DNA of 64,000 bases from NCBI RefSeq assembly GCF_014126825.1, contig NZ_CP059900.1, positions 3,734,954 to 3,798,953 on the forward strand, written 5' to 3'. A model generated the notes under the pieces. The model was not told the origin of the DNA. It was given only the letters and a program-made list of their open reading frames with translations, and searched no databases. The position numbers were made by a program, and so were the translations under genes. Position 1 is the first letter of the stretch. Each line of letters starts with the position of its first letter. Shown one piece after another: positions 45,740 to 62,709 of the stretch. The stretch is from Tomitella gaofuii (lineage in GTDB: Bacteria > Actinomycetota > Actinomycetes > Mycobacteriales > Mycobacteriaceae).

Positions 45740-45827
45740 CGATGGACAGCTTAAGCGTCAATCCGACGCCGGCGGGGAAGCATCGCCGATGGCGGCGTGA
45801 TCCGCGTCTGATATTGACGGCCGGCGA

Positions 45828-46896: not shown

Positions 46897-46945
46897 TACG
46901 TGCGGCGGCGGCACCGCGCGATCGCAGTTCCGCCGCTCTGCGCCG

Positions 46946-47062
46946 TCAGCGCGGGTTGTCGGTCTTGGCCCGCACTTCACGGGCGCCGAAGTCGAGTCCG
47001 CGCCCGGAGGCCAGCCCGATGGCGAGTACCGCGCCGGCTGCGATCAGGAGTCCTGCAAGCAT
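46946..47062 (-). CDS. 38-residue single-helix membrane peptide
   Basis: A short frame starts with ATG at 47062, preceded by AAGGG at a good distance. It encodes a hydrophobic helix (MLAGLLIAAGAVLAIGLASG) and a charged tail (FGAREVRAKTDNPR). It stands alone between clpB's terminator and a strong hairpin. No homologue is recalled; real expression is uncertain. Confidence 0.45.
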   Translation of the reverse strand: MLAGLLIAAGAVLAIGLASGRGLDFGAREVRAKTDNPR

Positions 47063-47203
47063 GTCGTGTCCCTTCGTCGGGGTCCGGTTCCGGCCGGGCC
47101 CTGGGTGTTGCGCAGTGCGCGCCCCCGTAAACATTCTGTGCATGCCGGACACACCAAATCTACCTATGACGGCCGGTACCGCCTATGACGTTGGTCATGG
47201 CGC

Positions 47204-47237
47204 GGCCGTGGGCGAGACCGGCATCTCACCCACGGCC
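47204..47237. terminator. clpB terminator hairpin
   Basis: GGCCGTGGGCGAGA (47204-47217) pairs with TCTCACCCACGGCC (47224-47237) with one G-U type mismatch and a 6-base loop. It starts 8 bp beyond the clpB stop on the - strand. Confidence 0.72.
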
Positions 47238-47244
47238 CACTCCG

Positions 47245-49809
47245 CTATGACCCGGACGACAGGACCAGGCTCTCGCCGTCCTCCGCCACGGTGACCGGCA
47301 CCGCGTCCCCGTCCCGGATCTCGCCGGCGAGCAGCTTCTTGGCCAGCTGGTCGCCGATGGCCTGCTGGATCAGCCTGCGCAGCGGACGCGCCCCGTAGGC
47401 CGGGTCGTAACCGCGCGCCGCCAGCCAGGCCCGCGCGGGCCCGGAGACGTCCAGCGTGAGCCGGCGCGCCTCGAGCCGCCTGGCCAGCTGGCCCAGCTGG
47501 ATGTCGACGATCGACTCCAGCTGCTGCTCCGACAGCGGGTCGAAGATGACCACGTCGTCGAGCCGGTTGATGAACTCCGGCTTGAAGGTGGCCTTCACCG
47601 CCGCCATCATCTGGTCGTGGCTCCCGCCCGCGCCCAGGTTGGACGTGAGGATCAGGATCGTGTTGCGGAAGTCCACCGTCCGCCCCTGGCCGTCGGTGAG
47701 GCGGCCGTCGTCGAGCACCTGCAGCAGGATGTCGAACACGTCCGTGTGCGCCTTCTCGACCTCGTCGAACAGCACCACCGTGTACGGGCGGCGGCGCACC
47801 GCCTCGGTGAGCTGCCCGCCGGACTCATAGCCGACGTACCCCGGGGGCGCACCGACCAGCCGTGCCACCGAGTGCTTCTCCGAGTACTCCGACATGTCGA
47901 TCCGCACCATCGCGTGCTCGTCGTCGAAGAGGAATTCGGCAAGCGACTTGGCCAGCTCCGTCTTGCCCACGCCCGTGGGCCCCAGGAACAGGAACGAACC
48001 CGTGGGCCGGTCGGGGTCGGCCACGCCGGCGCGCGCCCGCCGGACCGCGTCCGACACGGCCTGGACGGCCTCGGTTTGGCCCACCACGCGGCGCCCCAGC
48101 TCCTGCTCCATGCGCAGCAGCTTGGCCGTCTCGCCCTCGAGCATGCGGCCCGCGGGGATGCCGGTCCAGGCGGAAACGACCTCGGCGACGTCGTCGGGGC
48201 CCACCTCCTCCTTGAGCATCACATCGCCGGACCCGTCGTCGCCGCCCGCCTCGTCCGTGGCGGCCGCGAGCTCCTTCTCCAGCTCCGGGATCCGCCCGTA
48301 ACGCAGCTCGGCCGCCTTGCCCAGGTCGCCGTCGCGCTCGGCGCGCTCCGACTCGCCGCGCAGGTTCTCCAGCTGCTCCTTGAGCTCGCGCACCGCGTCG
48401 ATGGACTGCTTCTCGTTCTGCCACCGCGCCATGAGCTGGCTGAGCTTCTCGCGCTCGTCGGCCAGTTCCTCGCGCAGCTTGTCCAGGCGCTCCTTCGAGG
48501 CGGCGTCGTCCTCCTTGGCCAGCGCCACCTCCTCGATCTCGAGGCGACGGACGATGCGCTCCACCTCGTCGACCTCCACGGGGCGCGAGTCGATCTCCAT
48601 GCGCAGCCGCGACGCCGCCTCGTCCACCAGGTCGATGGCCTTGTCCGGCAGGAACCGCGAGGTGATGTAGCGGTCCGACAGTGTTGCGGCCGACACCAGC
48701 GCGGAGTCGGTGATGCGCACGCCGTGGTGCACCTCGTAGCGCTCCTTGAGCCCGCGCAGGATGCCGACGGTGTCCTCCACACTCGGCTCGCCCACCAGAA
48801 CCTGCTGGAAGCGCCGCTCCAGGGCGGCGTCCTTCTCGATGTACTGGCGGTACTCCTCGAGCGTCGTGGCGCCGACCAGCCGCAGCTCACCGCGGGCGAG
48901 CATCGGCTTGATCATGTTGCCGGCGTCCATCGCGGACTCGCCGGTGGCGCCGGCGCCCACGATGGTGTGCAACTCGTCGATGAAGGTGACGATCTGGCCG
49001 TCGCTCTCCTTGATCTCGTCGAGCACGGCCTTGAGCCGCTCCTCGAACTCGCCGCGGTACTTGGCACCCGCCACCATCGAGCCGAGGTCCAGGGAGATGA
49101 CCGTCTTGCCGCGCAGCGATTCGGGCACGTCGCCCGCGACCACGCGCTGCGCCAGGCCCTCGACGATGGCCGTCTTGCCCACGCCGGGCTCGCCGATGAG
49201 CACCGGGTTGTTCTTGGTGCGGCGGCTGAGCACCTGGACGACGCGGCGGATCTCCGTGTCGCGGCCGATCACCGGGTCCAGCTTGCCTTCGCGCGCGGCG
49301 GCGGTGAGGTCCGTCGAATACTTCTCCAGCGACTGGTAGGTGGACTCCGGGTCCTCGCTGGTCACCCGCCGGTTGCCGCGCACGGAGGTGAACGCCTCCC
49401 GCAGCGCGTCCGGCCCCGCCCCGCGCCCGGAGAGCAGCGTGGCCACATCGGAGTCGCCGGTCGCCAGGCCCACGAGAAGGTGCTCGGTGGAGACGAACTC
49501 GTCCGACATCTCGCCGGCCAGCTTCTGCGCCACCGTCACCGCGGCAAGCGACTCACGCGACAGGTTCGGCTGCGCGGAGGCGCCCGACGCCGTCGGCAGC
49601 GCGTCCACCAGCCGCTGCGCCTCGGCGCGGACCGTCTGCGGGTCGACGCCCACGGCGCGCAGCAGCGGCGCGGCGATCCCGTCGGCCTGGTCGATCAGCG
49701 CCACCAGCAGGTGCGCGGGCCGGATCTCCGGGTTGCCCGCGGCCGACGCCGACTGCAGAGCGGCCGACAGCGCCGCCTGGGTCTTGGTTGTCGGGTTGAA
49801 CGATTCCAC
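47245..49809 (-). CDS. clpB: ATP-dependent disaggregase ClpB
   Basis: The 854-residue Hsp100 chaperone works with DnaK to dissolve protein aggregates. In order it has the N-domain ([12 protein letters not shown]), AAA-1 with Walker A GEPGVGKT and the pore [10 protein letters not shown], a coiled-coil middle domain (about residues 410-530, [17 protein letters not shown]), AAA-2 with [17 protein letters not shown] and pore [13 protein letters not shown], and the C-terminal small domain. A GTG at 49809 has AAAGGG at proper spacing; GTG 49815 adds two residues. A HAIR-like element upstream suggests HspR control. The gene equals Rv0384c in position. Confidence 0.96.
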
Positions 49810-49869
49810 TTCCACCCTTTCGTCCGGGTCGAGCCGGGTCGCGCGACAGCCGCGCGCCCCGCCGAGTCA

Positions 49870-49906
49870 GTTGATATCACCAGACTCAACCTGGTCGCAC
49901 TTGAGT
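49870..49906 (-). promoter_or_regulatory. HAIR-like HspR binding site upstream of clpB
   Basis: On the - strand, GTTGAGT-N7-TATCAAC (49890-49870) resembles the HAIR inverted repeat CTTGAGT-N7-ACTCAAG that binds HspR. An exact CTTGAGT on the + strand (49900-49906) forms a second, wider-spaced inverted pair with ACTCAAC (49884-49890). Placement about 60 bp before the clpB start fits heat-shock repression. Confidence 0.55.
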
Positions 49907-50000
49907 CTATTCCGCTCATGCATGGACGCCGGCCGCTTCCATCGTGATCTCCCCCACGATTCCAGCAGCCCAGGCACGCCCCGCGCCGGAGAACGCGCCT

Positions 50001-50046
50001 GTACTGCTGAGTAACCCATGGCCGAGCGCCCGGAAGCGCTCACACC
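50001..50046 (-). repeat. Dispersed 3'-end repeat, partial copy A
   Basis: GTACTGCTGAGTAACC and CTCACACC occur in the same order and near the same spacing as in the longer copies at 51064 and 58067. As there, CTCACACC contains the stop codon of a - strand gene (50040). The 5' portion of the repeat is absent. Confidence 0.55.
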
Positions 50047-50969
50047 GGCGCGCCGGCTGCGCGCAGGGCGGTCCGCAGCTGCCCGAGAGCCTTCGCCGCC
50101 CCGTCCCGCAGGTGCGGCGCGCGCACTCTGATCACCACGTACCCGGCCTCATGCAGATCGTTCCAGCGCACGATGTCGCGGTCGCGCTGCGCCGTCGTCG
50201 CATGCGGGGCGTCACCGTCGTACTCGAACACGACGCGGTACTCCGGCCAGCACATGTCGACACGCGCGATGAACGCCCCGTCCGCACGCCGGATCTCCAC
50301 CTGGGTCCGGGGCGTCGGCAATCCCGCGGCGACGACGGCCAGGCGCGCACGCGTCTCCCACACCGACTCGGCGCCCTCATCCGAAGCGTCGATCACCGCG
50401 GGCACGCGCGGACCGCCGCGCAGCCCACGATGGGTGCGCGCATACTCGGCGAGCGCGGCACGGGTGAGGTTCGTCGCCTGGTAGAGCGCGTCGACCACCT
50501 CGACGCTCTGCGGATACGGCATCCGGCGCGCCACGTCGAATGCGGTGCGGACCGGCGAAGTGACGCGGACTCCGCGGACCCGGCGCACATCGCCGTCATC
50601 GAGTTGATCCTCATGCACATGCACCCACGCGCGGCATCTGCGGGGCGTCCGGCTGACGCAGCTCGCGTAGCGGTGGTCCCCCAGGTAGCGCGCGCCCAGC
50701 ACCGCCGCGGCCGAGACATCGGACAGCACGACCGCCCCGCGCGACCACTCCCAGACCGCGAGCGCGCGCAGGTACGGAGTCAGCGACACGCTGTTTCTGA
50801 TGCACACCCCCGGCAGGATCAGCCGGTGGTGCGAATCCATCCGACGGCGGGTGACGCACCCGCACGCCAGCGCCTCGGCACGGCGGAACGGCACTCCGGT
50901 CGTGTGCGAGCAACACGAGAGCGCCGCACCGCGGCGGGGGCGGGCATCACGGGGACGATTCGACTCCAC
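50040..50969 (-). CDS. DUF559-type nuclease-fold protein with AbiEi-like N-terminus
   Basis: The 309-residue protein has an N-terminal region typical of AbiEi-like/winged-helix proteins (FRRAEALACGCVTRRRM, LILPGVCIRNSV, VVLSDVSAAAVLGA). Its C-terminal domain is of the DUF559/Vsr-like PD-(D/E)XK fold: ARVDMCWPEYRVVFEYDGD, then HATTAQRDRDIVRWNDLHEAGYVVIRVR. Such proteins are common in Mycobacteriales and have no firm function; mobile-element defence or housekeeping nuclease roles are guesses. The start is a GTG at 50969. Two DnaA-box-like sites lie upstream. Confidence 0.8.
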   Translation of the reverse strand: MESNRPRDARPRRGAALSCCSHTTGVPFRRAEALACGCVTRRRMDSHHRLILPGVCIRNSVSLTPYLRALAVWEWSRGAVVLSDVSAAAVLGARYLGDHRYASCVSRTPRRCRAWVHVHEDQLDDGDVRRVRGVRVTSPVRTAFDVARRMPYPQSVEVVDALYQATNLTRAALAEYARTHRGLRGGPRVPAVIDASDEGAESVWETRARLAVVAAGLPTPRTQVEIRRADGAFIARVDMCWPEYRVVFEYDGDAPHATTAQRDRDIVRWNDLHEAGYVVIRVRAPHLRDGAAKALGQLRTALRAAGAPV

Positions 50970-51021
50970 GGGGCGAGACTGTCACCCCAGTCGGCCGCCC
51001 GCGCCGCGCCGAGCGCCGCCC

Positions 51022-51049
51022 TGTGGACAACGTGTACGCCTGTGCATAA
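51022..51049 (-). promoter_or_regulatory. Pair of DnaA-box-like 9-mers
   Basis: On the - strand TTATGCACA (51049-51041) and TTGTCCACA (51030-51022) lie 10 bp apart. The second is the exact actinobacterial DnaA-box consensus and the first a common variant. They are in the upstream region of the DUF559 gene, not in an obvious origin. Confidence 0.5.
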
Positions 51050-51063
51050 CCGCCAGCGCCCCA

Positions 51064-51156
51064 GCGCACGGTTCCAGCACTCCGGGTACGTTAGCGCCCC
51101 CGTGACGTCCCCCTACTGCTGAGTAACCTCATATCGGAGGCGCCCCCTCACACCAT
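51064..51156 (-). repeat. Dispersed ~92-bp repeat, copy B
   Basis: GCGCACGGTTCCAGCACTCC at its left, TACTGCTGAGTAACC in the middle and GGAGGCGC with CTCACACCAT at its right match copy C at 58067-58158 at about 80 of 93 positions, in the same orientation. The first 26 bases are identical. It ends over the stop codon of the ORF at 51148. Confidence 0.9.
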
Positions 51157-51676
51157 CGGTGCGCGGCCCAGCACCAGTCCCCCGTCCGCGAGCAGACGGA
51201 ACGGCGCCGCGCGGTCCGCCGCTTCGAGCGCTACCGACCCACGCTCGAAGCCGCGCACGGCGAACACGAACGCCGTCAGCCTCACGTGCAGCGGCCCGCA
51301 GCCGGTCAGCACCACCCGCGGCGGCGCGCCGCCACCGGCACCGGGGCCGGCGGCGGGCGGTAGTCGCCGTGCTGCTCGGCCCGGAGTCAGGCGCCGTCCG
51401 GGAGCAATCGCTCCCGGAGTCCGTGATCGCACCGGTCAACGATTCCCAGGTGTCGTACCGCAGCCGGGGAGCCGCGGCCGCGGCGAGCGCATCGAGCGTC
51501 GACGCGACAAGCATTCCTCCGGTCGATCGCTGGACGGTCCACCCCTGTGCGGCAGGGGCGATCCGCAGTCCGGATGTCAGCGCCGTGGCCAACGACGCGA
51601 TCCGGCGCCGCCGCCGCATGCCGGACACCAGCGGCGTCGCCCAGTCGCCGGCGACCGCCCCGCACGCGCCGCACAT
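51148..51676 (-). pseudogene. Frameshifted ORF, probable pseudogene or sequencing error
   Basis: Reading leftwards from an ATG at 51676, a natural-looking protein begins MCGACGAVAGDW, with SGMRRRRRIASLATALTSGL and WTVQRSTGGMLVASTLDALA. After about residue 85 (near 51400-51430) that frame becomes Arg/Ala-rich low-complexity to a stop at 51113. A different - strand frame takes over with LTGCGPLHVRLTAFVFAVRGF and FRLLADGGLVLGRAPMV, ending at 51148. A single frameshift would join them into a product of about 175 residues. A hairpin (TCCGGGAGC...GCTCCCGGA) lies at the shift, so slippage or an assembly error is possible. Function is unknown. Confidence 0.55.
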
Positions 51677-51712
51677 CCGCGTCCTCCGATCCTCTACGAC
51701 GGTCCGGCCGGG

Positions 51713-52591
51713 CTACTTGCGTGGAAAGCGGGCCACGAAGTCGTCGGCGATGCCGTTGAAGTTCGACCAGCGCACACCGTCGTGGGAGTTGATGTGTTCG
51801 ATGAGCCGTTCGAGCATGAGAAGCACCTGCGGACGGCCGGACACGTCCGGGTGCACGGTCATCGTGAACACCGCGTAGTCCATCTCCCGGTACACCCAGT
51901 CGAACTGGTCCTGCCACATCTGGCCGATGTCCCGCGGGTTGACGAAGCCGTGGCTGTTGGGGCTGGTCTTCACGAACATCATCGGGGGCAGGTCGTCGAG
52001 GTACCAGTTGGCGGGGATCTCGACCAGGTCTGTTTCCTCGCCGCGCACCAACGGCTTCATCCACTCGGCAGCCGGCTTGTCGTAGTCGATCTTCGTCCAG
52101 CTGTCTCCGACGCGCACGTAGTACGGCTCGAAATCGCGGTGCATGAGCGAATGGTCGTACTTGATGCCCCGTTCGAGCAGCAGCTCATTGGTGACCGGAG
52201 AGAACTCCCACCACGGGGCCACGTATCCGGTGGGCCGGGTTCCGGTGCGCGTTTCGATCAGGCCGATGCAGTGGTCGAGCACGGACGATTCCTGCGCCCG
52301 GTCCATCGCGATCGGGTTCTCGTGGCTGTAGCCGTGCACGCCGATCTCGTAGCCGCCGGCGACGACGTCGTCGAACTGCTGAGGGAAGGTTTCGATGGAG
52401 TGCCCTGGCCAGAACCACGTGGCCGGGAGCTCGTACTTCTGCAGAAGTCGCTGGAGTCGCGGCACGCCGACCTCGCCGGCGAACATTCCGCGTGAGATGT
52501 CGTCGGGGGAGTCCTCGCCCCCGTAGGAGCCGAGCCATCCGCCGACCGCGTCGACGTCGATGCCCAATGCTACGAAGATTTCCTTGGCCAC
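51713..52591 (-). CDS. PgdA/imidase-type polysaccharide-deacetylase-fold enzyme
   Basis: The 292-residue metal-dependent hydrolase is strikingly like H. pylori PgdA (HP0310). It keeps [64 protein letters not shown] and [18 protein letters not shown]. Metal ligands Asp14, His86 and His90 fall at the family positions. Relatives include bacterial cyclic imidases and allantoinase-like enzymes, so the substrate may be a cyclic imide or amide rather than peptidoglycan. No signal peptide is present, which argues for a cytoplasmic small-molecule role. A GTG start at 52591 has AAGGA upstream. It is the last gene of the LacI-controlled operon, 56 bp after the asparaginase. Confidence 0.88.
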
Positions 52592-52647
52592 GGTGTTTCC
52601 TTCCTCTCGACCCGGCGCACCGGGGTGCTGTATTCGTACTGTGGTCC

Positions 52648-53619
52648 TCAAACGTGGTCCGCGATGGCGTCGCCGTCCACGTGGCGCCCTCCGGCCAACA
52701 GCGCCGCGAACAGGATCCGCGCGTGGAACAGCGGGAGCGAACCGGTGCAGAGTGCGCCCGCGGCGACCAGGTCGACACCACCGCCGTTGGCGTAGATCGG
52801 CACGACGGGGCCTTCGTGGACCCGGGTGGACAGGCCCACGGTGATCCCGTCGGCCGTGGCCGTGCGCACCCACTCCAGCAGTGCATGGTTGCCGTTGCCT
52901 GCTCCTGTGCCGGCGAGGATGACTCCGCGCGCTCCCGCATCGACTGCGGCCGAGGCCAGCCGCGCGTCGGCCCCCGGGTGGGCGACCACCACGTCGACTC
53001 GCGTCACATCGAAGCGCGCGTCCGGCAGTGCCAGCGGCGACGGGCGGAGCGGGGCCGCGGTGAACGCGACGTTCCCGTCCACGATGCTGCCCACCGGACC
53101 GGCGCCGAGCGCGGCGAACGGGTCCGGCGCAATGGTCGCGGTCTTGCGGGTGCGCGCGGCCGGGAGGATTCTGCCCGCGAACACCAGCAGCACTCCGCGT
53201 CCGCGCGCCCGGGGGGAGGCCGCCACCGCGATCGCGTCCCGCAGGTTGCGCGGCCCGTCGGTGTCCGGCTCGTCCGCCGCCCTCTGCGCACCGGTGAACA
53301 CCACCGGCTTGTCCGCGGAGTGCACGAGGTCGAGCAGGTACGCCGTCTCCTCCATAGTGTCGGTGCCGTGGGTGATCACCACTCCGTCCACGTCGTCGCG
53401 GGCGAGTTCGGCGGCCGCCGCCTCGGCGATGCGCCGCAGGTCCCGGTGGGTCAGCAGATAGGACCCGAGGTTCATCACGTCCTTGCCCTCGACGATGGCC
53501 GGGCCGCCGGGCGCGCCTGCCAGCAGGTCGGCGACGCCGCGCTGGGCGGCGGAACCGCCGCCGGGCACGTAGGCCGAGGCGATGGTCCCGCCGGTGGCGA
53601 GGACGACGATGCGCGCCAT
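52648..53619 (-). CDS. Asparaginase/glutaminase-family amidohydrolase
   Basis: The 323-residue L-asparaginase-type enzyme has the first catalytic threonine in [10 protein letters not shown] and the second motif [16 protein letters not shown], followed by [10 protein letters not shown] and a C-terminal domain with HPGADARL and [14 protein letters not shown]. There is no signal peptide, so it is cytoplasmic. The ATG at 53619 with AAGGA upstream marks the conserved N-terminus. In this operon it could hydrolyse a half-amide such as the product of an imidase; simple asparagine use is the default alternative. Confidence 0.9.
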
Positions 53620-53674
53620 GGAGTCCTTCCTCGATTGCGGGGGTCGTGTCTGTGCGGTGTACCGGATGTCGGCG

Positions 53675-54406
53675 CTACGGCATGACATCGCCGCTGTTGG
53701 GCCCGAGCGTCTGTCCGACGTAGATGTCGCCGCCGGGCGAGCCGGCCAGCAGCAGTGCGGTGGGCGCGATCTCCTCGGGGCGCCCGAAACGCCCCAGCGG
53801 AAGTTCAGCGGCCTTCTGCGCCTTCCAGTCTTCCGAGAGCCCGTCGATCAGCGGGGTGACGACGGGCCCCGGCGCGATGGCGTTGACGAGCACGCCGTGG
53901 GGCGCGAGTTCCTGGGCCAGCGCCTTGGTCATGCCGATCACGCCCGCCTTGGCCGCGACATAGTGCGCCAGGTTCACCCCGCCCTTGATCCCCAATTGCG
54001 ACGCGATCGGAATGATCCGGCCACGCCCGGCCGCCACCATGTGCGGGGCGGCGTACCGGGCGGCGAGGAACACCCCGCGCAGGTCCACCGCGAGCGTCCG
54101 GTCCCACTGCGCCGGGTCCATCTCCAGGAACGGCACCTCCTCGAGGATCCCGGCCGCGCACACGAGCACGTCGATGCGCCCGTGCTCGGCGATCACCGCG
54201 TCGATCCCGGCGGACACCGAGTCCGCGTCGGTCACGTCCACCCTGTGGCGGGTGGTCGCCGGCAGTGCGGCCGACTCCGGGGCGGGTTCGGCGATGTCGA
54301 ACAGGGCGAGTGCGGCGCCTTCCGCGCTGAACAGGCGTGCCACCGCCGATCCGATACCACTGGCGGCACCGGTGATCACGGCGACCTGCCCTTCGAGTGC
54401 TCCCAT
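53675..54406 (-). CDS. Short-chain dehydrogenase/reductase (SDR-A)
   Basis: The 243-residue classical SDR has TGAASGIG, CAAGILEE, the active-site IASQLG serine region and HYVAAKAG (YxxxK). It ends with a family-typical GGDIYVGQTLGPNSGD. It lies in the middle of the LacI-regulated operon, 14 bp after the other SDR, and probably oxidises a hydroxyl of the imported compound or its product with NAD(P). Confidence 0.9.
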   Translation of the reverse strand: MGALEGQVAVITGAASGIGSAVARLFSAEGAALALFDIAEPAPESAALPATTRHRVDVTDADSVSAGIDAVIAEHGRIDVLVCAAGILEEVPFLEMDPAQWDRTLAVDLRGVFLAARYAAPHMVAAGRGRIIPIASQLGIKGGVNLAHYVAAKAGVIGMTKALAQELAPHGVLVNAIAPGPVVTPLIDGLSEDWKAQKAAELPLGRFGRPEEIAPTALLLAGSPGGDIYVGQTLGPNSGDVMP

Positions 54407-54420
54407 GTCGTTCCTCCTTC

Positions 54421-55242
54421 TCAGCTCGGCCATCGCACGGTCAGACCGCCGTCGACGATGAGTTGCTGTCCGGTGATGTACGCCGCGTCCTCGCTGGTGA
54501 GGAACCGGATCGCACGCGCGCATTCGTCGACGGTGCCGACCCGGCCGCGCGGGATGATCCGCCCGGCTTCGCGCAGGCCGTCCGGGCCCAGGGAGTTCTG
54601 CTCGTCGAGCGACTGCGGGCTCTCGATCAGGCCGGGGATCACCGCGTTGCACCGGATGCCGCGTGGGGCGAGTTCCACCGCGAGGGAGCGGCACAGGCCG
54701 AGCACTCCGGACTTCGCCGCCGCGTAGTGGGCGTGATCCTCCCAGCCGTATACGCCGCCGGCGATCGACGACGTCGCCACGAGGGCGCCGCCGGAGTCCA
54801 TGCGAGCAGCGGCCGACCGGAACAGCCGGACCACCCCGGACAGGTCCACCGCCATCATGTCGTCCCAGGCCTCGTCGGTCATCTCACCGAGCGGACGCCG
54901 CCGGAGGATGCCGGCCGCGGCCACAGCGATATCGAGGCGGCCGAAGGTCTCCAACGCCGCTTCCGTGAACCGGTCGGTCCGTTCGGCCGAACGCACGTCG
55001 AGCTCCACCGCCCGGCACCGCCCGCCGGCCCGTTCGACGGCCTCGACGGTCTCGCCGGCGTCATGCGGATCGCCGGGGTAGTACCCGACCACCGAGTCCG
55101 CGCCGGCCCGGGCGTAGGCGACCGCGAGGGCGCGCCCGATCCCGCTGGCGCCGCCGGAGATAGCGGCGACCTTCCCGGCGAGCCCGTCGTCGCGTGCGGG
55201 GGCCGTGGCCTGCGTGCCGGGCTCGAGGTCTTGTGCTGTCAT
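54421..55242 (-). CDS. Short-chain dehydrogenase/reductase (SDR-B)
   Basis: The 273-residue classical SDR has SGGASGIGRAL, ELDVRSAERTD, AAAGILRRRP, SSIAGGVYGWEDHAHYAAAKSG (catalytic Ser and YxxxK) and ITGQQLIVDGGLTV. Its N-terminal 20 residues are Ala/Thr-rich and variable. The stop is 14 bp before the SDR-A ATG and the start 8 bp after the transporter stop, so all are one operon. Two different SDRs suggest successive oxidation/reduction (epimerisation-like) steps. Confidence 0.9.
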   Translation of the reverse strand: MTAQDLEPGTQATAPARDDGLAGKVAAISGGASGIGRALAVAYARAGADSVVGYYPGDPHDAGETVEAVERAGGRCRAVELDVRSAERTDRFTEAALETFGRLDIAVAAAGILRRRPLGEMTDEAWDDMMAVDLSGVVRLFRSAAARMDSGGALVATSSIAGGVYGWEDHAHYAAAKSGVLGLCRSLAVELAPRGIRCNAVIPGLIESPQSLDEQNSLGPDGLREAGRIIPRGRVGTVDECARAIRFLTSEDAAYITGQQLIVDGGLTVRWPS

Positions 55243-55250
55243 CGCTGCTC

Positions 55251-56615
55251 CTACGCTGTCTCGCGGGCGTGATCGCCCATCCGGTTGGTTGTGCGGGTGC
55301 CGAGCATGAGCAGCCCGGACACGAGCATGAACACCGAGCCCGCGCCGATCGCCGCAGCCGACATCGGCATCCCGGTGGCGAGCAGCAGGCTGAGCAGGCC
55401 GGAACCGATGATGCCTCCGACCGGCGCCATCACGTGCGCCACGTTGGCGCCGGTTCCGCGCACGTGCGCCGGGAACGATTCGCCCATGTAGAACAGCATG
55501 GCGCCGTAGGGCCCGTTGAGGAAGAACAACGTCAGGGCGTACATGAAGATGGTCATGCCCTGACCGGTCGGCAGGATCAGCATCAGTGCTGAAACGATGC
55601 CGCCGAGCGTCCAGCCGACCGTCACGGTGAGCTTGCGGCCGAAGCGGTCGCCGAGCCAGCCGTGCGCGAGGTAGCCGATGAACGCGGCCACGTTGGAGAG
55701 CACCAGGACCACCAGTGCGCTTTCGAAGCTGACGTCCTTGGCACCGACGAGCACCGTGGTGCCGAGCACCGAGAACACCTGGATCCCCATCCAGTTGGTC
55801 AACCATGCGCCGGACAGGCACAGCGTGTGCCGACGGATCGACGGGGCGAGGACGTCGCGCAGGCCGCCGGTCATCTGCTCGGAGTCGGTGAGCTCCGTCA
55901 GCTCGAATCGCACCGCGAGCTCGCGGGCTCCGGCGTCGTCGCCGACGGACTGGCGCCGTTTGACCTCCTTGATCGCCAGGAAGGTCGGGGACTTCGGCAG
56001 GAACTTGATCGCCGCGAGGATCACCGGGATGGAAACGGCCCCCGCGACCACGAAGGACCAGCGCCAGCCGATCACCGGCAGCAGCAGCGCCGTGATGCCG
56101 GCCGAAACGAGGGCGCCCACCGGCCAGCCCGACTGCACGAGGCTGAAGATGAACCCCCGGTTCTTGACCTTGCGGAGCATCTCGTTGAGGTAGACGGAGT
56201 TGACCACCTCCTCGGACAGCGACAGACCCGTGATCGAGCGGATCAGGATGATGCTGACCACGCCCATGGCCAGTCCTGTCAGGCCCGACGCGATGGTGCC
56301 GCCGATCATCAGGATGATCAGCGCCTGTTTGCGGCCGAGCTTGTCGAGCAGCGGCCCGACGGCGATCGACACGAGGAACACGCCGGCCGTGGCGATGGTG
56401 TTGATGGTCGTGGACTGCGCCGTGGACCAGCCGAACTCGTCGGCTATCTCGGGAAGGAGCGTGCCGAACAGCGTGTAGTCGTACACGGAGGCGGACCAAG
56501 CGAGGAAGGCGATGATGCTGACCGCTGCGATGTCCTTGCGGGTGATCTCCCGGTCCCATGGTTGCGCATCGGGCGGGGCCGGGCGCGCCGTCTTCGCGCG
56601 CAGGGTTGCGTTCAT
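55251..56615 (-). CDS. MFS transporter (sugar/aromatic-acid-type symporter)
   Basis: The 454-residue 12-helix major facilitator protein has the loop-2 signature LLDKLGRKQALI, SLSEEVVNSVYLNEML in helix 5, and the second-half repeat GWLGDRFGRKLTVTVG. It heads the operon and probably imports the inducing substrate by proton symport. The ATG at 56615 gives the natural hydrophilic N-terminus. Two LacI-type operators lie upstream at 56663 and 56775. Confidence 0.9.
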   Translation of the reverse strand: MNATLRAKTARPAPPDAQPWDREITRKDIAAVSIIAFLAWSASVYDYTLFGTLLPEIADEFGWSTAQSTTINTIATAGVFLVSIAVGPLLDKLGRKQALIILMIGGTIASGLTGLAMGVVSIILIRSITGLSLSEEVVNSVYLNEMLRKVKNRGFIFSLVQSGWPVGALVSAGITALLLPVIGWRWSFVVAGAVSIPVILAAIKFLPKSPTFLAIKEVKRRQSVGDDAGARELAVRFELTELTDSEQMTGGLRDVLAPSIRRHTLCLSGAWLTNWMGIQVFSVLGTTVLVGAKDVSFESALVVLVLSNVAAFIGYLAHGWLGDRFGRKLTVTVGWTLGGIVSALMLILPTGQGMTIFMYALTLFFLNGPYGAMLFYMGESFPAHVRGTGANVAHVMAPVGGIIGSGLLSLLLATGMPMSAAAIGAGSVFMLVSGLLMLGTRTTNRMGDHARETA

Positions 56616-56662
56616 CTGCGAGGCTCCTCGTTCTCGGGCAGCGGCAGCGGGGCGCCGCTCGG

Positions 56663-56680
56663 CACACAAAGGTTTGTGTG
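56663..56680. promoter_or_regulatory. LacI-type operator O1
   Basis: CACACAAA-GG-TTTGTGTG is an exact inverted repeat 48 bp upstream of the transporter start, positioned to block its transcription. Confidence 0.65.
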
Positions 56681-56774
56681 GATGGCGTTACGCAAACGTC
56701 TCCACGTGCACCGCCTCAAGCGGAAGCCATCGACGCACGGTGCGTCGGGGGCGCTCCGGGCGTCGGCACGAATC

Positions 56775-56794
56775 TTACACAAACGTTTGGGTAA
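56775..56794. promoter_or_regulatory. LacI-type operator O2
   Basis: TTAC-A-CAAACGTTTG-G-GTAA is an inverted repeat with a perfect CAAACGTTTG centre, the classic CpG-centred LacI-family core. A related half site TTAC-G-CAAACGT lies at 56688-56699. With O1 it brackets the promoter region of the operon. Confidence 0.75.
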
Positions 56795-56887
56795 CGATGG
56801 ATGAGAGAGTAGCGGTGAGTGCCGTCACAAGTCAACGGGGGTCGCTCTCCGAGGACCACGCCGCCGCCGAAGCCCCGGGCCCGCGCC

Positions 56888-57940
56888 TCAGGCCGACGAC
56901 CCCTGCGCTCCTGCTCCACGACCCGCGGAGGACTCGCGCACGATCAACGTCGGCTCCAGCTCGACAGGCTCGGGGTCCTCACCGTCGAGGACCCCGAGCA
57001 GCATCGCGAACCCCTCCGACCCCATCCGGTGCATCGGCGAGTGCACCGAGGTGAGCGGCACCGGCAACTCTGCGGCCAGCGTCGTGTCGTTGTAGCCGAT
57101 GAGGACGATGTCGTCCGGCGCGCGCAACCCGTGATCCCGCAGCGCTCCCATGGCGCCGATCGCGGCGAAATCGTTGGTCGCGAAGATGGCGTCGGGATAC
57201 GGCGGCCCCTGCGCCAGCAGCTCTTCGGCCGCGGCGCGCCCGCCCCGGGCATCGAACGGTCCGTGGATGATCCGTTCATCCGGCACCGCGACTCCCGCTT
57301 CCGCCAGCGCGGCGACGAGCCCGGCAGTGCGGTCGATGCCGGTCGAGGCGTAGGGCTGGCCGGCCAGCACGGCGACGCGGCGGCAGCCCAGCTTGGCCAG
57401 GTGGCGACCGGCCAGCCGCCCTCCCAGCTCGTCGTCGCAGGTCACGGAGGGGAAACCCGGGCTACGCCGCGAGACCAGCACGAACTTGAGCCCCCGGGCA
57501 TGCACCTCGCGAAGGAACTCGCCGTCGAAGAAGGCGTCGCCGAAGATCAGCCCCTCGACCCGGCGCGCCGCCAGCAACTCGACAGCCTTCTGCTGTCGTT
57601 CACGCTGGTCGAGCGAGTTCGCGGCCAGGGTTGTGTACCCATGCGCAACCGCAGCCTCGTCGACGCCCTCGTGGATGGTCGCGAGAACATAGTCCTGCAT
57701 CCGCGGGACCACCATGCCCACGAAGTTCGAGCGCTGGGTGCGCAGACCCACCGCCTGCGGGTTGGGGGTGTACGCGTGCCGGTCCGCCGCCTTGCGCACC
57801 CGTTCGATCGTCTGGTGCGATGCCCACCGTCGCGCCGCGGAGGCGCTCTCCGCGTTGAGGACCCGCGACACCGTCGAGGCCGAGACGCCGGTCTCCTCCG
57901 CAATGGTGTGCAGCGTCGAATGCCGCGGCTGCCTCGCCAC
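56888..57940 (-). CDS. LacI-family transcriptional regulator
   Basis: The 350-residue repressor has the N-terminal LacI helix-turn-helix and hinge (TLHTIAEETGVSASTVSRVLNAESA, YTPNPQAVGLRTQRS) and a periplasmic-binding-protein-like core: NFVGMVVPRM, EGLIFGDAFF, AIFATNDFAAIGAMGAL, and VLIGYNDTTLA. A GTG start at 57940 has AGGAGG at ideal spacing. It lies immediately upstream of the operon on the same strand, with LacI-type operators in the gap, so it is the likely local regulator. The inducer is unknown. Confidence 0.92.
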   Translation of the reverse strand: MARQPRHSTLHTIAEETGVSASTVSRVLNAESASAARRWASHQTIERVRKAADRHAYTPNPQAVGLRTQRSNFVGMVVPRMQDYVLATIHEGVDEAAVAHGYTTLAANSLDQRERQQKAVELLAARRVEGLIFGDAFFDGEFLREVHARGLKFVLVSRRSPGFPSVTCDDELGGRLAGRHLAKLGCRRVAVLAGQPYASTGIDRTAGLVAALAEAGVAVPDERIIHGPFDARGGRAAAEELLAQGPPYPDAIFATNDFAAIGAMGALRDHGLRAPDDIVLIGYNDTTLAAELPVPLTSVHSPMHRMGSEGFAMLLGVLDGEDPEPVELEPTLIVRESSAGRGAGAQGSSA

Positions 57941-58066
57941 CCGGTCCTCCTGCCCCGATCTCCGGCCGCGTCTCGCAGCCCGGCCCGCTCCCCGTCCGGA
58001 TCCCCAAGCTACCGCAGCGGCGCGGCGTCCCCGCGCGCATTCCCGCGCACGCCGGTCCGCCGCGCC

Positions 58067-58158
58067 GCGCACGGTTCCAGCACTCCGGGTACATTCGCGC
58101 CCCCAGACGTACCCATACCGCTGAGTAACCCCGCTTCGGAGGCGCGCCCTCACACCAT
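58067..58158 (-). repeat. Dispersed ~92-bp repeat, copy C
   Basis: This is a direct repeat of copy B (51064-51156), about 7 kb away in the same orientation. It too ends over the stop codon of a - strand gene (58150) and includes TACCGCTGAGTAACC. On the - strand GGGTAC...GTACCC could form a short stem. Confidence 0.9.
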
Positions 58159-59778
58159 CCGCTCGGCGCCCTCCCAGTACCGCGCCCGCAGCGCCTTCTT
58201 GTCCGGCTTGCCCAGCCCCGTCACCGGGATCGCGTCGATGACGTCGACCGTCTTGGGCGAGTGCACCGACCCCAGGGCCTCCTTGACCCGCGCGATCAGC
58301 ACGTCCGCGTCGACGGTGCGCCCCTCCCGGGGGACGACGCACGCCTTGACCGCCTCGCCCCACTTCTCGTCGGGCACGCCCACCACGGCGACGCCGGCGA
58401 CCGCCGGGTCCGCGGAGATGACGTCCTCGATCTCGCGCGGGAACACATTGAATCCGCCGGTGACGATCATGTCCTTCTTGCGGTCGACGATGGTCATGAA
58501 TCCGGCCTGGTCCATGCGCGCGACGTCGCCGGTGTGCAGCCACCCGCCGCGCAACGCCTCCTCGGTCTGCTCCGGCTTGTTCCAGTACCCGCGCATGACC
58601 AGCGGGCCGCGCACGCAGATCTCGCCCAGCTGCCCGCGCTCGACCTCGTTCAGGTCGTCGTCGAGCAGGCGCACGTCCAGCCACGGCACCGGCCGCCCGC
58701 AGGAGGCGAGCCGCGCCGGGTCCTCCGGCAGGTGTTCTTCCCGGCGCATCACGGCGATCGTCATGCCGCACTCGGACTGGCCGTAGAACTGGAAGAACAC
58801 CGGCCCCAACTTGGCCATGCCCTCCCGCAGCCGGGACGGCGACATCGCGGAGGCCCCGTAGAACACGGTCTGCAGGCTCGACAGGTCGCGGGTGTCGATG
58901 TCGGGGTGGTCGAGCAGCATGTAGATCATCGTCGGCACCAGCATGGTGGAGGTGATCCGGTACTTCTCGATCGCCTCCAGCACCGCGCCCGGCGAGAACT
59001 GCTCGAGCACCACCAGGGCACCACCGCGCAGGAGAGTGGGCAGGAAGAACGCGGCGCCGGCATGCGAGAGCGGCGTGCACACCAGAAAGCGCATGTCGTC
59101 GGGCAACTGCCACTCCGACATCTGGATCTGCGGCAGCGTCACGCCGGACCGGAAGGTGTTGACGACGCCCTTCGGCTTGCCGGTGGTGCCGCCGGTGTAC
59201 ACCATCGACGACGCGTCCTCGCCGTCCACATCCGCCGCCACCAGCGGCTTCGGTTCGAACGTGGCGGCCAGCGCCAGGATGTCCGTGCCCACCTCGGACG
59301 GCCCCAGCGACAGCAGCGTCGTCAGAGTGGGGCACGCGTCGCGGAGTTGCGCCGCGCGCTCCTCGTAGTGGCGGGGGTCGAAGACGAGCATCTCGATCTG
59401 CGCGTCGTCGATGATGTAGCGGTGCGCGTCGAGTTCCACGGTGGGGCTCAGCGCGGTGTTGCGGCACCCGGCGATGATGGTCGAGCCCATCGAGATGAGG
59501 ACCTCGGGCCGGTTCTTCGACAGCATCGACGCCTTCGTGCCCTTGCCGACGCCCAGCGATGCGAGTGCCTGGATGAAGCAGCTGATCTGGTCGCGCACCT
59601 CGCCCGCGGTGAGCACCACGTCGCCCAGGTACAACGCCGGCTTGTCCTGGTTGCGGTCGAGGGCGCGGATCAGCAGGTCGGGCATGTACTGCATGCGGTG
59701 CAGAGCGGGGTCCGCCGCCCCCGCCGCGCCGGCCGGCCCCGGGGCGCCCGCGGAGTCCGTCGTCAGGGTGTCGCTCAT
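58150..59778 (-). CDS. Acyl-CoA ligase / AMP-dependent synthetase
   Basis: The 542-residue ANL-superfamily ligase has YTGGTTGKPKGVV, QFYGQSECGMT, FMTIVDRKKDMIVTGG, VFPREIEDVI, and a C-terminal lysine in GLGKPDKKALR. The N-terminal 30 residues are Ala/Gly-rich and variable. The ATG at 59778 with GGAGG upstream is preferred over one nine codons earlier. It probably activates fatty or aromatic acids to CoA esters. It is divergent from the flavohaemoglobin gene, and its 3' end lies in repeat copy C. Confidence 0.92.
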   Translation of the reverse strand: MSDTLTTDSAGAPGPAGAAGAADPALHRMQYMPDLLIRALDRNQDKPALYLGDVVLTAGEVRDQISCFIQALASLGVGKGTKASMLSKNRPEVLISMGSTIIAGCRNTALSPTVELDAHRYIIDDAQIEMLVFDPRHYEERAAQLRDACPTLTTLLSLGPSEVGTDILALAATFEPKPLVAADVDGEDASSMVYTGGTTGKPKGVVNTFRSGVTLPQIQMSEWQLPDDMRFLVCTPLSHAGAAFFLPTLLRGGALVVLEQFSPGAVLEAIEKYRITSTMLVPTMIYMLLDHPDIDTRDLSSLQTVFYGASAMSPSRLREGMAKLGPVFFQFYGQSECGMTIAVMRREEHLPEDPARLASCGRPVPWLDVRLLDDDLNEVERGQLGEICVRGPLVMRGYWNKPEQTEEALRGGWLHTGDVARMDQAGFMTIVDRKKDMIVTGGFNVFPREIEDVISADPAVAGVAVVGVPDEKWGEAVKACVVPREGRTVDADVLIARVKEALGSVHSPKTVDVIDAIPVTGLGKPDKKALRARYWEGAERMV

Positions 59779-59996
59779 CGTCCCTCCACTTTCGTCGTGA
59801 TCCACCCGACACTATCGCCATAATTGACACATGTTCCAGTGCCGGTTCCGGGGGCACCCCCGACAGGCGCCGCATGACGCCCGCCACCCGCCGCGACGCC
59901 GCACCTTCCACCGGTTCAGTACGCTGTAACCGCAGCGGAAGCAGCGGGTGCCGGCCGGATGGGCGCGGCCGCGGTGCCGACAGGGAAAGGGGTCGC

Positions 59997-61148
59997 ATGT
60001 CCACAGCGGAACCGTCCCCACGACAACAATTCCTGGCGTTCCTGCATGAAGACTCCGATACACTCAGCGCGGAGATATTCGCGCGCTTCTTCGCCTACCG
60101 GCCCGCCGCCCGCGCCATGTTCCCGGCGAACATGGTCGGGCACCGCGCCGTGTTCATGGATGTCCTCGTGTATGTGGTGCGCTCGATCGAGGACCCCGCC
60201 GCGGAGCCCGCCATGATGGCGTTCCTCGGCCAGTTGGGGCGGGATCACCGCAAGTTCGGGGCCACCGCTGAGGACTACTCGGCCTTCCGCAAGTCGATGG
60301 CGATGGTCGTCTCGCAGCGCCTCGGCCACCGGCGCACCCCCGAGATCGACAAGCTCCTGCTGCTCCTGGTGCGCGCCACCACCGAGCTGATGAACGCGGG
60401 CGCCGCCCAGGCCCCGGGGCCGGCCTTCGTCGAGGCGACGGTGGTCGAGCACATCCGGGCCACGCGCGATCAGGCCGTCATCCGCCTGCAGGCCGACGCG
60501 CCCGTCCCCTACCGCGCCGGCCAGTACCTGAGCGTGCGCACCACGCTGGGCGGCTGGCGCTACTTCTCCCCCACCATCCCGCCCAACCCCGGCGGCCAGG
60601 TGGAGTTCCTCGTCCGCACCGTCCCCGGCGGCGACGTGAGCGGCCCGGTGGTGGCGGGCACGCGGGTGGGCGACCGGTGGCGGCTCGGCGCGGCCCACGG
60701 GGCGATGCAGGTGGACCGCGATGCGGGCTGCGACGTGCTCATGGTCGCGGGCGGCTCCGGCGTGGCCCCCATGCGGTCGATGATCGTGGACATGGCCCGC
60801 TTCGGCGACAACCCGCGGGTGCACCTGTTCTACGGTGCGCGGCATCCGGGGGACCTCACCGAGATGCCCACGCTGTGGCGGCTGTCCATCACGAACCCGT
60901 GGCTGACGGTGGTGCCGGTGTCGGAGGAGACCGAGGACCCCTGGTGGTTGACGGACACCGACAGCCGATACGAGCCGGGCATGCACTCGCGGCAGACGGG
61001 CACGCTCGCCGACGTCGTCACGTCGTACGGGGCGTGGTCGGACCGGCGCGTGCTGGTGTGCGGTTCACCGAAGATGGTCGAGGCCACCGTGGGCCGGCTC
61101 CTGGCGGCGGGCACGCCCCGCGAGAACATCGCCTTCGACCCGTACTGA
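59997..61148 (+). CDS. Type II flavohaemoglobin-like oxidoreductase (Rv0385-like)
   Basis: The 383-residue protein has an N-terminal globin domain (residues about 8-140; FFAYRPAARAMFPANM, candidate proximal His in LGRDHRKFG), an FAD domain with YRAGQYLSV and the RYFSPT flavin segment, and an NAD(P) domain with VAGGSGVAPMRSM and VLVCGSPKMVEATV. Position (after clpB in the conserved order) and sequence match the mycobacterial type II flavohaemoglobins, which differ from NO-dioxygenases in the haem pocket and are linked to D-lactate/electron transfer. The ATG at 59997 follows GGGAAAGGGG. Confidence 0.87.
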   Translation: MSTAEPSPRQQFLAFLHEDSDTLSAEIFARFFAYRPAARAMFPANMVGHRAVFMDVLVYVVRSIEDPAAEPAMMAFLGQLGRDHRKFGATAEDYSAFRKSMAMVVSQRLGHRRTPEIDKLLLLLVRATTELMNAGAAQAPGPAFVEATVVEHIRATRDQAVIRLQADAPVPYRAGQYLSVRTTLGGWRYFSPTIPPNPGGQVEFLVRTVPGGDVSGPVVAGTRVGDRWRLGAAHGAMQVDRDAGCDVLMVAGGSGVAPMRSMIVDMARFGDNPRVHLFYGARHPGDLTEMPTLWRLSITNPWLTVVPVSEETEDPWWLTDTDSRYEPGMHSRQTGTLADVVTSYGAWSDRRVLVCGSPKMVEATVGRLLAAGTPRENIAFDPY

Positions 61149-61233
61149 CGGATCCGGTCTGCACCCCCCGGTGCGCACGCGATCGGGCCCCGCGCGCGGG
61201 AGGTTCCGCGCACAGGGCCCGACCGGCCGTCCG

Positions 61234-62709
61234 TCAGTTGGGGTTGAACCCGAAGTCCTGGCCCCGCACGCTCTCCCAGCGCGACGTGACGTACTTGGGC
61301 CGCGTGTAGAAGCTCCAGGACGCGTTGTTCAGCCCCGTGTCGCCGAACGCCGACGCCTTCCAGCCCTGCACCGCGTAGGCGGCGACGGGCACCGGGATCG
61401 CGACGTTGACGCCGACCATGCCCGCGGTGACGCGCCGCTCGAACTCGTTGGCCGCGGCCCCGTTCTGCGTGAAGATCGACGCACCGTTGCCGTAGCGGTG
61501 GCTGCGGATCAGCTCCAGCGCCTCGTCGAGCGTGTCCACCCGCAGCACCACCAGCACCGGGGCGAACAGCTCCTGCGTGTACACCGGCGAGGTCACGTCG
61601 ACGTCGGTCAGGAGCGTCGGCCCCACGAAGTACCCGCTCTCGTAGCCGGGGACCGTCTCGGCCGACCTGTCGACGACGGCCCGCGCACCGGCGGCCACCG
61701 CGTCGCGCACCACCTGCTGCACCCGCTGCTGCGAGCGGCGGCTCACCACCGGCCCCACCTCGACTCCGGTTTCCGATCCCGCGCCGACGACGACGTTCCG
61801 CGCACGCTCGGCGAGACGTTCCAGCAGCGGCTCGGCCGTCGGCCCCACCACGACCGCGACGGAGATGGCCATGCACCGCTGCCCGGCCGCGCCGAAGGCC
61901 GCGGCGGTGAGCTGGTCGGCGGTCACCTCGAGGTCGGCGTCGGGCATGACGACAAGGTGGTTCTTCGCCCCGCCGAAGGCCTGCACGCGCTTGCCCGCGG
62001 CGGCGGCCCGCTCGTAGATGACCTGGGCCACGTCGGAAGAGCCGACGAACGACACCGCCTCGGTGTCCGGCGAATCGATGAGCCGCTGCGAGGCCTCGAC
62101 GCCGCCGTGCACCACGTTGAGCACGCCGTCCGGGAGCCCGGCCTGCGAAAACAGCTCGGCGATGCGCACGCACACGCCCGGGTCCTGCTCGCTGGGCTTC
62201 CACACGAACGTGTTGCCCGCGGCCAGCGCCACCGACATCATCATCAGGCCCATCATCGCCGGGAAGTTGAACGGCGTGATGCCCACGCACACGCCGAGCG
62301 GGTGCAGGACGGACTTGGTGTCGATGCTGGGGCCCGTTTGCAGCGACGTGGCGCCCCGCAGCTGCGCCGGTCCGCCGCAGGCCAGCTCGATCGAGTCGAC
62401 GGCGCGGGTCACCTCGCCGGCGGCGTCGTCGAGGGTCTTGCCGTGCTCTTCGGAGATGAGCGCGGCGAGCTCGTCGCGGTGCTCCAGCAGCAGGTCGCGC
62501 GCCTTGAACAGCACGTGCACCCGGCGCGACTGCGGGGTCTGCGACCAGCCTTCGAACGCCTTGAGTCCGGAGGAGACGGCCGTGTCGATCGTGGCGGCGT
62601 CCGCCATGGGAGCCGTGGCGACCGCGCTGTCGGTGGCCGGGTTCTCCACCTCGACCGCGCCGGTGCCGTCCACGGCTGTGCCGTTGATCCAGTGGGTGAT
62701 GGTGCGCAT
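61234..62709 (-). CDS. mmsA: Methylmalonate-semialdehyde dehydrogenase (CoA-acylating)
   Basis: MmsA (491 residues) converts methylmalonate semialdehyde and malonate semialdehyde to propionyl- and acetyl-CoA in valine, thymine and inositol breakdown. Diagnostic blocks are HWINGTAVDG, GVCVGITPFNFPAMMGLMM, WKPSEQDPG, FVGSSDVAQVIYERA, and the catalytic FGAAGQRCMAIS. The C-terminal TRPKYVTSRW is also typical. A transporter lies just upstream on the same strand, separated by about 100 bp. Confidence 0.95.
   Translation of the reverse strand: MRTITHWINGTAVDGTGAVEVENPATDSAVATAPMADAATIDTAVSSGLKAFEGWSQTPQSRRVHVLFKARDLLLEHRDELAALISEEHGKTLDDAAGEVTRAVDSIELACGGPAQLRGATSLQTGPSIDTKSVLHPLGVCVGITPFNFPAMMGLMMMSVALAAGNTFVWKPSEQDPGVCVRIAELFSQAGLPDGVLNVVHGGVEASQRLIDSPDTEAVSFVGSSDVAQVIYERAAAAGKRVQAFGGAKNHLVVMPDADLEVTADQLTAAAFGAAGQRCMAISVAVVVGPTAEPLLERLAERARNVVVGAGSETGVEVGPVVSRRSQQRVQQVVRDAVAAGARAVVDRSAETVPGYESGYFVGPTLLTDVDVTSPVYTQELFAPVLVVLRVDTLDEALELIRSHRYGNGASIFTQNGAAANEFERRVTAGMVGVNVAIPVPVAAYAVQGWKASAFGDTGLNNASWSFYTRPKYVTSRWESVRGQDFGFNPN

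Follow-up and report, generated by a model that had tools for sequence, protein, structure and literature searches.

What small-molecule chemistry, if any, unites a transporter, two dehydrogenases, an asparaginase-type protein and a relative of a peptidoglycan deacetylase encoded side by side? Such a cluster lies in a stretch of 64,000 nucleotides of Tomitella gaofuii (contig NZ_CP059900.1), which is called the window here. An earlier note on this DNA had proposed that the five genes, together with a LacI regulator, form a route for an imide, amide or hydroxylated nitrogen compound. Our analysis points to a self-contained, probably mobile catabolic cassette for a cyclic imide and the half-amide derived from it. 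Judged from the sequence, this reading is rather likely for the class of compounds as a whole and far less so for any single compound.

The genes of the cassette are all on the minus strand, in the transcription order lacI, major facilitator superfamily (MFS) importer, two short-chain dehydrogenases (SDR1 and SDR2), asparaginase-type gene, PgdA-like hydrolase gene and a sixth gene (Table 1). The five genes from the MFS gene to the hydrolase gene (51713..56615) had been correctly called and placed in the earlier note; the LacI regulator that it mentions lies upstream on the same strand. Their spacing is tight, with gaps of 8, 14, 55 and 56 nucleotides, and an operon is therefore likely; a further 36 nucleotides separate the hydrolase from the sixth gene. 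The gap of 272 nucleotides between lacI and the MFS gene contains two palindromes that match ACAAACGTTTGT. Two such sites occur in the window against 0.24 expected, an expectation that is partly circular because we derived the pattern from this stretch by visual inspection. A site matching at 10 or more of the 12 positions was found in 33 of 51 LacI-side regions (32 of 50 without the window) compared with 0.4% of shuffled regions; L015, where the region is too short, is left out of this count (L and G numbers designate loci and genomes). Seven of the 51 regions have no site of at least 9/12. These operator-like sites suggest that the cassette is probably under LacI control. In proteobacterial loci, the regulator adjoining the cluster is usually annotated as GntR.

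By homology and residues, the hydrolase falls in the HpPgdA/cyclic imide hydrolase-type branch of PF01522. It is closest, among solved structures, to Helicobacter pylori HP0310 (3qbu/4ly4), with an ungapped alignment over residues 2-292 (E 1.1e-156). Across 113 distinct relatives that share 55% identity or more, the window protein among them, 70 positions do not change. Kept in 113/113 are Asp12, Asp14, His86, His90 and His247, which bind the metal or take part in catalysis and three of which (Asp14, His86 and His90) had been pointed out in the earlier note, and so are the gate residues that close the HP0310 pocket (Tyr23, Trp127, Trp196 and Leu201). By eye, no hydrophobic leader is visible at the N-terminus. 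An identity as PuuE allantoinase was rejected, as the TIGR03212 score is 71.8 bits against a cut-off of 424.6. HP0310 is described as having a closed active site that suits a small molecule and no signal peptide, and as inactive on N-acetylglucosamine, chitotriose, N-acetyl polyamines, N-acetyl dipeptides and allantoin (PMC3084791). Aspergillus nidulans HxnM shares 64.2% identity with a cyclic imide hydrolase of Pseudomonas putida, and HP0310 is the homologue closest to it in structure. The compound 3-hydroxypiperidine-2,6-dione was detected, in a small amount, only in the hxnM deletion strain, and the authors propose that HxnM opens its ring (PMC9304392). Published work on HP0310, the P. putida cyclic imide hydrolase and HxnM places the family near the cyclic imidases, a kinship also named in the earlier note.

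The hydrolase is not confined to this genome. Among 200 genomes of the window's order, 20 have a close hydrolase by our reading and 38 any match at 1e-20; among 299 sampled genomes of Pseudomonadota, a match at 1e-100 was found in six, one of which is the Halomonas that served as the centre. A paralogue of 35% identity lies in L135 (6326-8831), near genes annotated as hydantoinase/oxoprolinase-type, DUF917 and cytosine permease.

The asparaginase-type protein keeps the catalytic machinery of its fold and has lost residues that would be expected to recognize an amino acid. In Escherichia coli AnsB, Gln59 and Glu283 hold the alpha-amino group of the substrate, and Tyr25 likewise lies near the amino-acid substrate. 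When 81 linked asparaginase-type proteins (window included) were aligned with AnsB, the catalytic residues were found to be kept (Thr12 in 80/81; Thr89, Asp90 and Lys162 in 81/81), as was Ser58 (81/81, AnsB numbering). Tyr25 and Gln59 are kept in none of the 81 and Glu283 in six, and the window protein has none of the three. Retained catalysis with lost substrate residues suggests that a half-amide, such as succinamate or hydroxyglutaramate, fits better than asparagine; the protein appears built as a half-amidase might be, and this pattern agrees with the cleavage of a half-amide considered in the earlier note. Plain L-asparaginase was rejected on the same residues, and the window protein also misses the cut-offs for L-asparaginase of either type, I or II (TIGR00520, 210.5 vs 314.3; TIGR00519, 137.3 vs 260.5). 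A second asparaginase-type stretch of the genome (698280-698615) is no clean control, because its frame also lacks Tyr25 and is gapped at positions 58-59.

In proteobacterial loci, the asparaginase-type gene is often replaced by an amidase-signature protein of unrelated fold (PF01425 in L115), and an amidase is annotated in L113, L117, L118 and L132-L134. An amide hydrolase of one or the other fold is present in 79 of the 94 loci of a hydrolase tree; the amidase matches of 32% identity in L049, L074 and L149 are possibly unrelated amidases. That an unrelated fold fills the same place argues that the amide-hydrolysis step itself is required. The Leisingera plasmid locus L113 has two hydrolase and amidase units (8691-10882 and 18130-20288), the second of which adjoins a gene annotated as a urea carboxylase-associated family protein.

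The catalytic Ser and the YxxxK motif are kept in 50/50 linked SDR1 and 55/55 linked SDR2 proteins, and SDR substrates read from solved relatives were set aside, as the matches are mostly generic FabG- and polyol-type SDRs. An Asn belongs to the catalytic tetrad of many SDRs; it is replaced by Asp in 50/50 linked SDR1 and 49/55 linked SDR2 proteins, among them both SDRs of the window. The best subfamily of the MFS protein is that of the aromatic acid/H+ symporters, with a TIGR00895 score of 158.5 bits that is far below the cut-off of 418.55. No alkene reductase of the Old Yellow Enzyme (OYE) family was found in window positions 45000-64000.

The same partners accompany the hydrolase elsewhere. 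The relatives compared are the best 80 of at least 586 confirmed hydrolase matches in a genome-collection scan, and the set therefore leans to near kin. Each locus was viewed up to 9 kb on either side of the hydrolase; 15 loci end early at contig ends and 65 are whole. The asparaginase-type gene is directly upstream of the hydrolase on the same strand in 65 of the 80 relatives, with a LacI gene in 45 (at least 40% identity over 200 residues), an MFS gene in 43, SDR1 in 42 and SDR2 in 43; the SDR identity cut-off of 48% misses some annotated rhizobial SDR pairs. All six genes are present in 37/80 loci and in 31/65 of those not cut by contig ends. In two 19-kb control stretches of the window, none of the reference operon genes was matched. 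An OYE-family reductase occurs in 5/80 loci and PxpABC-type genes in 3-4/80. Gene order varies between loci. In the tree of 94 hydrolases, the nearest neighbour is that of Ruania (support 92), where the gene order is as in the window, and at least 19 changes of SDR linkage are needed, a number inflated by cut-offs and contig ends. The tree is without the more distant loci because L001-L031, L122-L127 and L136-L143 were excluded and L144-L158 were lost through the removal of identical proteins.

A hydrolase match is carried by 104 plasmid records at 1e-40 and by 181 at 1e-20. Eighteen regions, picked for variety and with incomplete gene tables, were examined; counts refer to the 15 with at least 60% hydrolase identity, 13 proteobacterial and two actinobacterial (L112 and L119), leaving aside the haloarchaeal L130 and L131 (46-48% identity) and L135 (35%). 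Two annotated SDRs are present in 11 of these loci, an amide hydrolase in 12 (that of L114 by our own match only), PxpABC-type genes in seven and an OYE in two (L112 and L134), and a dihydropyrimidinase gene stands beside the hydrolase in L128. In the tables of L130 and L131, the SDR pair and the amide hydrolase were not seen, and L131 lists one SDR. The partners thus recur in Actinomycetota and Pseudomonadota, the outcome on which the earlier note had staked its reading. On a Klebsiella pneumoniae plasmid (L115, approximately 8592-16382), the proteobacterial version of the cluster has annotated insertion sequences on either side (IS26; IS903B and ISKpn21).

The earlier description, right in its five genes, did not include a conserved sixth gene, the CobW GTPase that adjoins it in Proteobacteria or the evidence that the unit may be mobile. 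A strict rule for motif, start and distance (700 nucleotides) places a small protein starting MC[GS]xC[GA] after the hydrolase or SDR2 in 49/80 relatives and misses at least L091, L101 and L102; a minus-strand motif match in L054 was excluded as false. In the plasmid set, the small protein is present in all 15 loci and a CobW-type GTP-binding protein in 14 (in L128 and L129 by annotation only). No Pfam or NCBIfam match was obtained for any small-protein member scanned, and the best hit of its profile in a PDB sequence search had an E-value of 0.28. Searched against the 200 genomes of the order, the profile of the small protein matched nine, all of which belong to the 20 that have a close hydrolase; no match was obtained in the remaining 11 of these (Fisher p 1.4e-10, or 1.4e-9 without the window genome, values that overstate the association because the genomes are related). 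In eight of the nine, the small-protein gene is no more than 5 kb from the hydrolase gene, and in G020 the two are on different contigs. The invariance of the cysteines (44/44) is by construction, since the rows were picked by [MV]CxxC[GAS]; independent support for the MCxxCG start comes from similarity matches to the window's sixth gene, which have the same start.

The predicted structure of an actinobacterial member (97 residues, pLDDT 85.3) comprises a helix, three strands and two helices, with less confidence for the Cys-bearing N-terminus. In the window, the N-terminal domain of approximately 85 residues is intact, and similarity to L040/L033 then moves to the second and third frames; the sixth gene is therefore apparently broken or mis-sequenced after approximately residue 85, near which many of its relatives end anyway. 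Some CobW GTPases are metallochaperones, and the company of the small protein with CobW GTPases suggests metal delivery to the hydrolase. Tentatively, the sixth protein may help to load metal into the hydrolase. The match of the CobW-type protein to ZigA is far below the ZigA cut-off. In 10/15 plasmid loci, the CobW-type gene is directly followed by a gene like that of a solute-binding protein (e.g. L115 14141-16382 and L118 11220-13465), in which no leader was seen by eye.

An empty site in a congener defines the extent of the cassette. The congener G504 (L186) aligns to window positions 46595-51155 and 58063-61149 with nothing between, and a segment of approximately 95 bp that is single in G504 (L186 11790-11884) stands at both cassette ends in the window. 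The 24-mer core of this repeat, at no more than three mismatches, occurs twice in the 4.35-Mb genome, both times here. No hydrolase match at 1e-15 was found in four congeners (one of them 81% complete) or in a fifth family member; the same query does match the window's genome. Insertion of one unit of approximately 6.9 kb is the simplest account of this arrangement and appears likelier than deletion, in which the congeners would have lost the cassette by recombination between the direct repeats. Because the repeats are only 78-79% identical, the insertion is not called recent. From the empty site, we infer that the cassette was probably acquired horizontally. At the same site, the congener G505 has, by eye, MarR-like and MFS-like genes (L187 4820-7019), which suggests an insertion hotspot. 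Between the cassette and a clpB-like gene, an open reading frame (50040-50969) has a C-terminus that resembles DUF559/endonuclease proteins by eye, and next to it stands a third, incomplete repeat copy (49982-50017).

Table 1. Coordinates of the cassette, its genes and its flanking repeats in the window.
Feature	Position	Strand	Basis or remark
Direct repeat, lacI side, units D1 and D2	58042..58171		78-79% identical to other copy
LacI-type regulator	56888..57940	-	Peripla_BP_3 2.9e-33, LacI 2e-10; start codon GTG at 57940 is our choice
Operator-like palindrome	56779..56790		1 mismatch to ACAAACGTTTGT
Operator-like palindrome	56666..56677		1 mismatch to ACAAACGTTTGT
MFS importer	55251..56615	-	MFS_1 3.4e-38
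SDR1, short-chain dehydrogenase	54421..55242	-	Domain match
SDR2, short-chain dehydrogenase	53675..54406	-	Domain match
Asparaginase-fold amidohydrolase, proposed half-amidase	52648..53619	-	Asparaginase 2.9e-54
HpPgdA/cyclic imide hydrolase-type metal hydrolase, proposed imidase	51713..52591	-	HP0310 homology
Sixth gene, MCxxCG small protein (MCGACG start at 51676)	51113..51676	-	Similarity to relatives
Direct repeat, sixth-gene side	51039..51169		78-79% identical to other copy
Cassette of approximately 6.9 kb, absent from congener G504	51156..58062		Empty-site alignment

How might these parts work together? From the gene set, the catalytic residues, the operator-like sites and the recurrence, we infer each reaction, the order of the reactions and the substrate. 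If the cassette arrived alone, its products should import a compound and convert it all, or nearly all, of the way to a central metabolite. The imported compound would be a small nitrogen heterocycle, most likely a hydroxylated lactam or a cyclic imide. In the scheme proposed here, the MFS protein would take up a hydroxy-lactam, one SDR would oxidise the ring hydroxyl to yield the cyclic imide, and the PgdA-like metal hydrolase would open the imide to the half-amide. The asparaginase-fold enzyme would then free ammonia from the half-amide to leave a dicarboxylate, and the other SDR would oxidise the leftover hydroxy group and pass the carbon into central metabolism. This sequence of hydroxy-lactam, imide, half-amide, deamidation and oxidation is the simplest chemistry that uses all parts. 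Unsaturated rings and lactams would agree with the OYE and PxpABC genes found close to relatives, and a five-membered analogue, in which malimide leads to malate, is an equally good fit. The family evidence, the residue pattern and the neighbourhood support ring opening and amide hydrolysis, the core of the route proposed in the earlier note; they do not establish its order, with oxidation last, and in the fungal hxn pathway an SDR acts before ring opening.

Several observations weigh against an imide route. One or both SDRs are missing in 38/80 loci and the asparaginase-type gene in 15/80 (counts that include the 15 loci cut by contig ends), so the hydrolase works in other settings too. An MFS gene is present in 43 loci, and in 28 of them its product is less than 45% identical to that of the window; the transported compounds may therefore differ between loci. 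Among 11 distant loci (L148-L158), both SDRs were found in three, an amide hydrolase in six and the small-protein motif in six, and in L151 all the partners are missing. One solved asparaginase (9bad) has Thr in place of Gln59, which is thus not universal. LacI regulators and polyol-like SDRs would suit a sugar derivative as well. Knock-out data tie HP0310 to peptidoglycan acetylation (recounted in PMC3084791), and the native protein is reported to free acetate from acetylated xylan and chitin, to which Table 1 of that report adds chitosan, and to act on p-nitrophenyl acetate (PMC3688963).

LacI regulators often sense sugars, and one is present here. The hydrolase could be a small-molecule N-deacetylase or deformylase for an amino-sugar- or amino-polyol-like compound, with the SDRs as polyol dehydrogenases and the regulator as a sugar sensor. 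The SDRs do score against many sugar/polyol and FabG-like SDR families, HP0310 is reported to release acetate (PMC3688963), and PMC6957412 treats two A. fumigatus relatives as chitin deacetylases, one of which, Cod7, is inactive on N-acetyl oligosaccharides. We regard this explanation as unlikely, given that HP0310 is inactive on N-acetylglucosamine, chitotriose and several small N-acetyl amines (PMC3084791), that the HxnM deletion data indicate imide opening (PMC9304392) and that the frequent amide hydrolase, OYE and PxpABC neighbours are left unexplained.

A ring of the hydantoin, dihydropyrimidine or lactam type in place of the imide would account for the PxpABC-type genes in 7/15 chosen plasmid loci, the dihydropyrimidinase that adjoins the hydrolase in L128, the hydantoinase/oxoprolinase beside the 35%-identical paralogue in L135 and the relationship of the hydrolase to PuuE allantoinase. 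The window operon itself carries neither PxpABC nor dihydropyrimidinase genes, no carbamoylase is named in the incomplete gene tables of the 18 annotated plasmid regions, the asparaginase-type residue pattern suits an amide without an alpha-amino group, and HP0310 does not hydrolyse allantoin (PMC3084791); such a ring seems improbable to us. Far less credible is a peptidoglycan deacetylase with unrelated neighbours, which the Pfam and database name and the reports of an HP0310 peptidoglycan phenotype and activity (recounted in PMC3084791; PMC3688963) would favor. This role was rejected: no leader is visible by eye, the active site of the solved relative HP0310 is closed, the metabolic neighbours recur in two bacterial phyla, and the hydrolase is present or absent together with them at the empty site.

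The imide route can also be framed more specifically, as a mobile bacterial equivalent of the lower nicotinate pathway of fungi. A dihydroxy-lactam would be taken up, oxidised to 3-hydroxyglutarimide and opened to 2-hydroxyglutaramate, which a re-purposed asparaginase would deamidate before oxidation to 2-oxoglutarate; the new MCxxCG protein, with the CobW GTPase in Proteobacteria, would mature the metal imidase, and by extension H. pylori HP0310 would be an imidase and not a peptidoglycan deacetylase. We consider this full version doubtful. In its general form, the imide reading places the HpPgdA family, the natural substrate of which is left open in PMC3084791, in a conserved metabolic context that narrows the substrates worth assaying to a few. 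Bacteria would then possess a widespread route for cyclic imides or hydroxy-lactams, and one clade of proteins listed in databases as 'asparaginases' would be half-amidases. The small proteins encoded in these loci emerge as a conserved family.

None of the enzyme classes is new, and the logic of the reactions has a fungal precedent. Among the matches listed in the open-access literature, we found no description of the bacterial operon, of its operator, of the half-amidase reading or of the small protein; the matches listed for a bacterial imide operon were the two fungal hxn papers, papers on HP0310 and papers on dihydropyrimidinase-type enzymes or other subjects. The earlier remark that no described pathway has this exact set holds within these matches, although the lower part of the fungal hxn pathway comes close to it in function. 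In imidase/half-amidase metabolism, cyclic imides are processed as imide and then as half-amide, the same logic that is proposed for the window operon; SDRs are not known to be part of that route. With AnsB, the E. coli type II L-asparaginase, the linked proteins share the fold and the catalytic Thr/Thr/Asp/Lys, and they differ in the loss of Tyr25 and Gln59 (81/81) and Glu283 (75/81). HP0310 aligns with the window hydrolase over the full length without gaps and shares its metal and gate residues; the two differ in that the window hydrolase lies in a catabolic operon and HP0310 is described as a peptidoglycan deacetylase with its small-molecule substrate unsettled. The P. putida cyclic imide hydrolase (AAY98498) belongs to the same family by the published chain from HxnM through the cyclic imide hydrolase to HpPgdA (PMC9304392; PMC8478523).

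The closest described parallel appears to be the lower A. nidulans hxn nicotinate pathway, which comprises the OYE HxnT, the SDR HxnW, the cyclic imidase HxnM, the amidase HxnN, described as FAAH-like, and transporters (PMC9304392). HxnT, HxnW, HxnM and HxnN enter this comparison by their published descriptions. The window unit too has an SDR, an HpPgdA-type imidase-like hydrolase, an amide hydrolase and dedicated uptake, and an OYE is found in 5/80 bacterial relatives and 2/15 plasmid loci. The lower hxn pathway also runs the first of the proposed steps on a six-membered ring. In contrast, the window has an asparaginase fold instead of a FAAH-like amidase, two SDRs and no OYE, and its operon, which lacks the upper nicotinate genes, is accompanied by a LacI regulator and the MCxxCG small protein.

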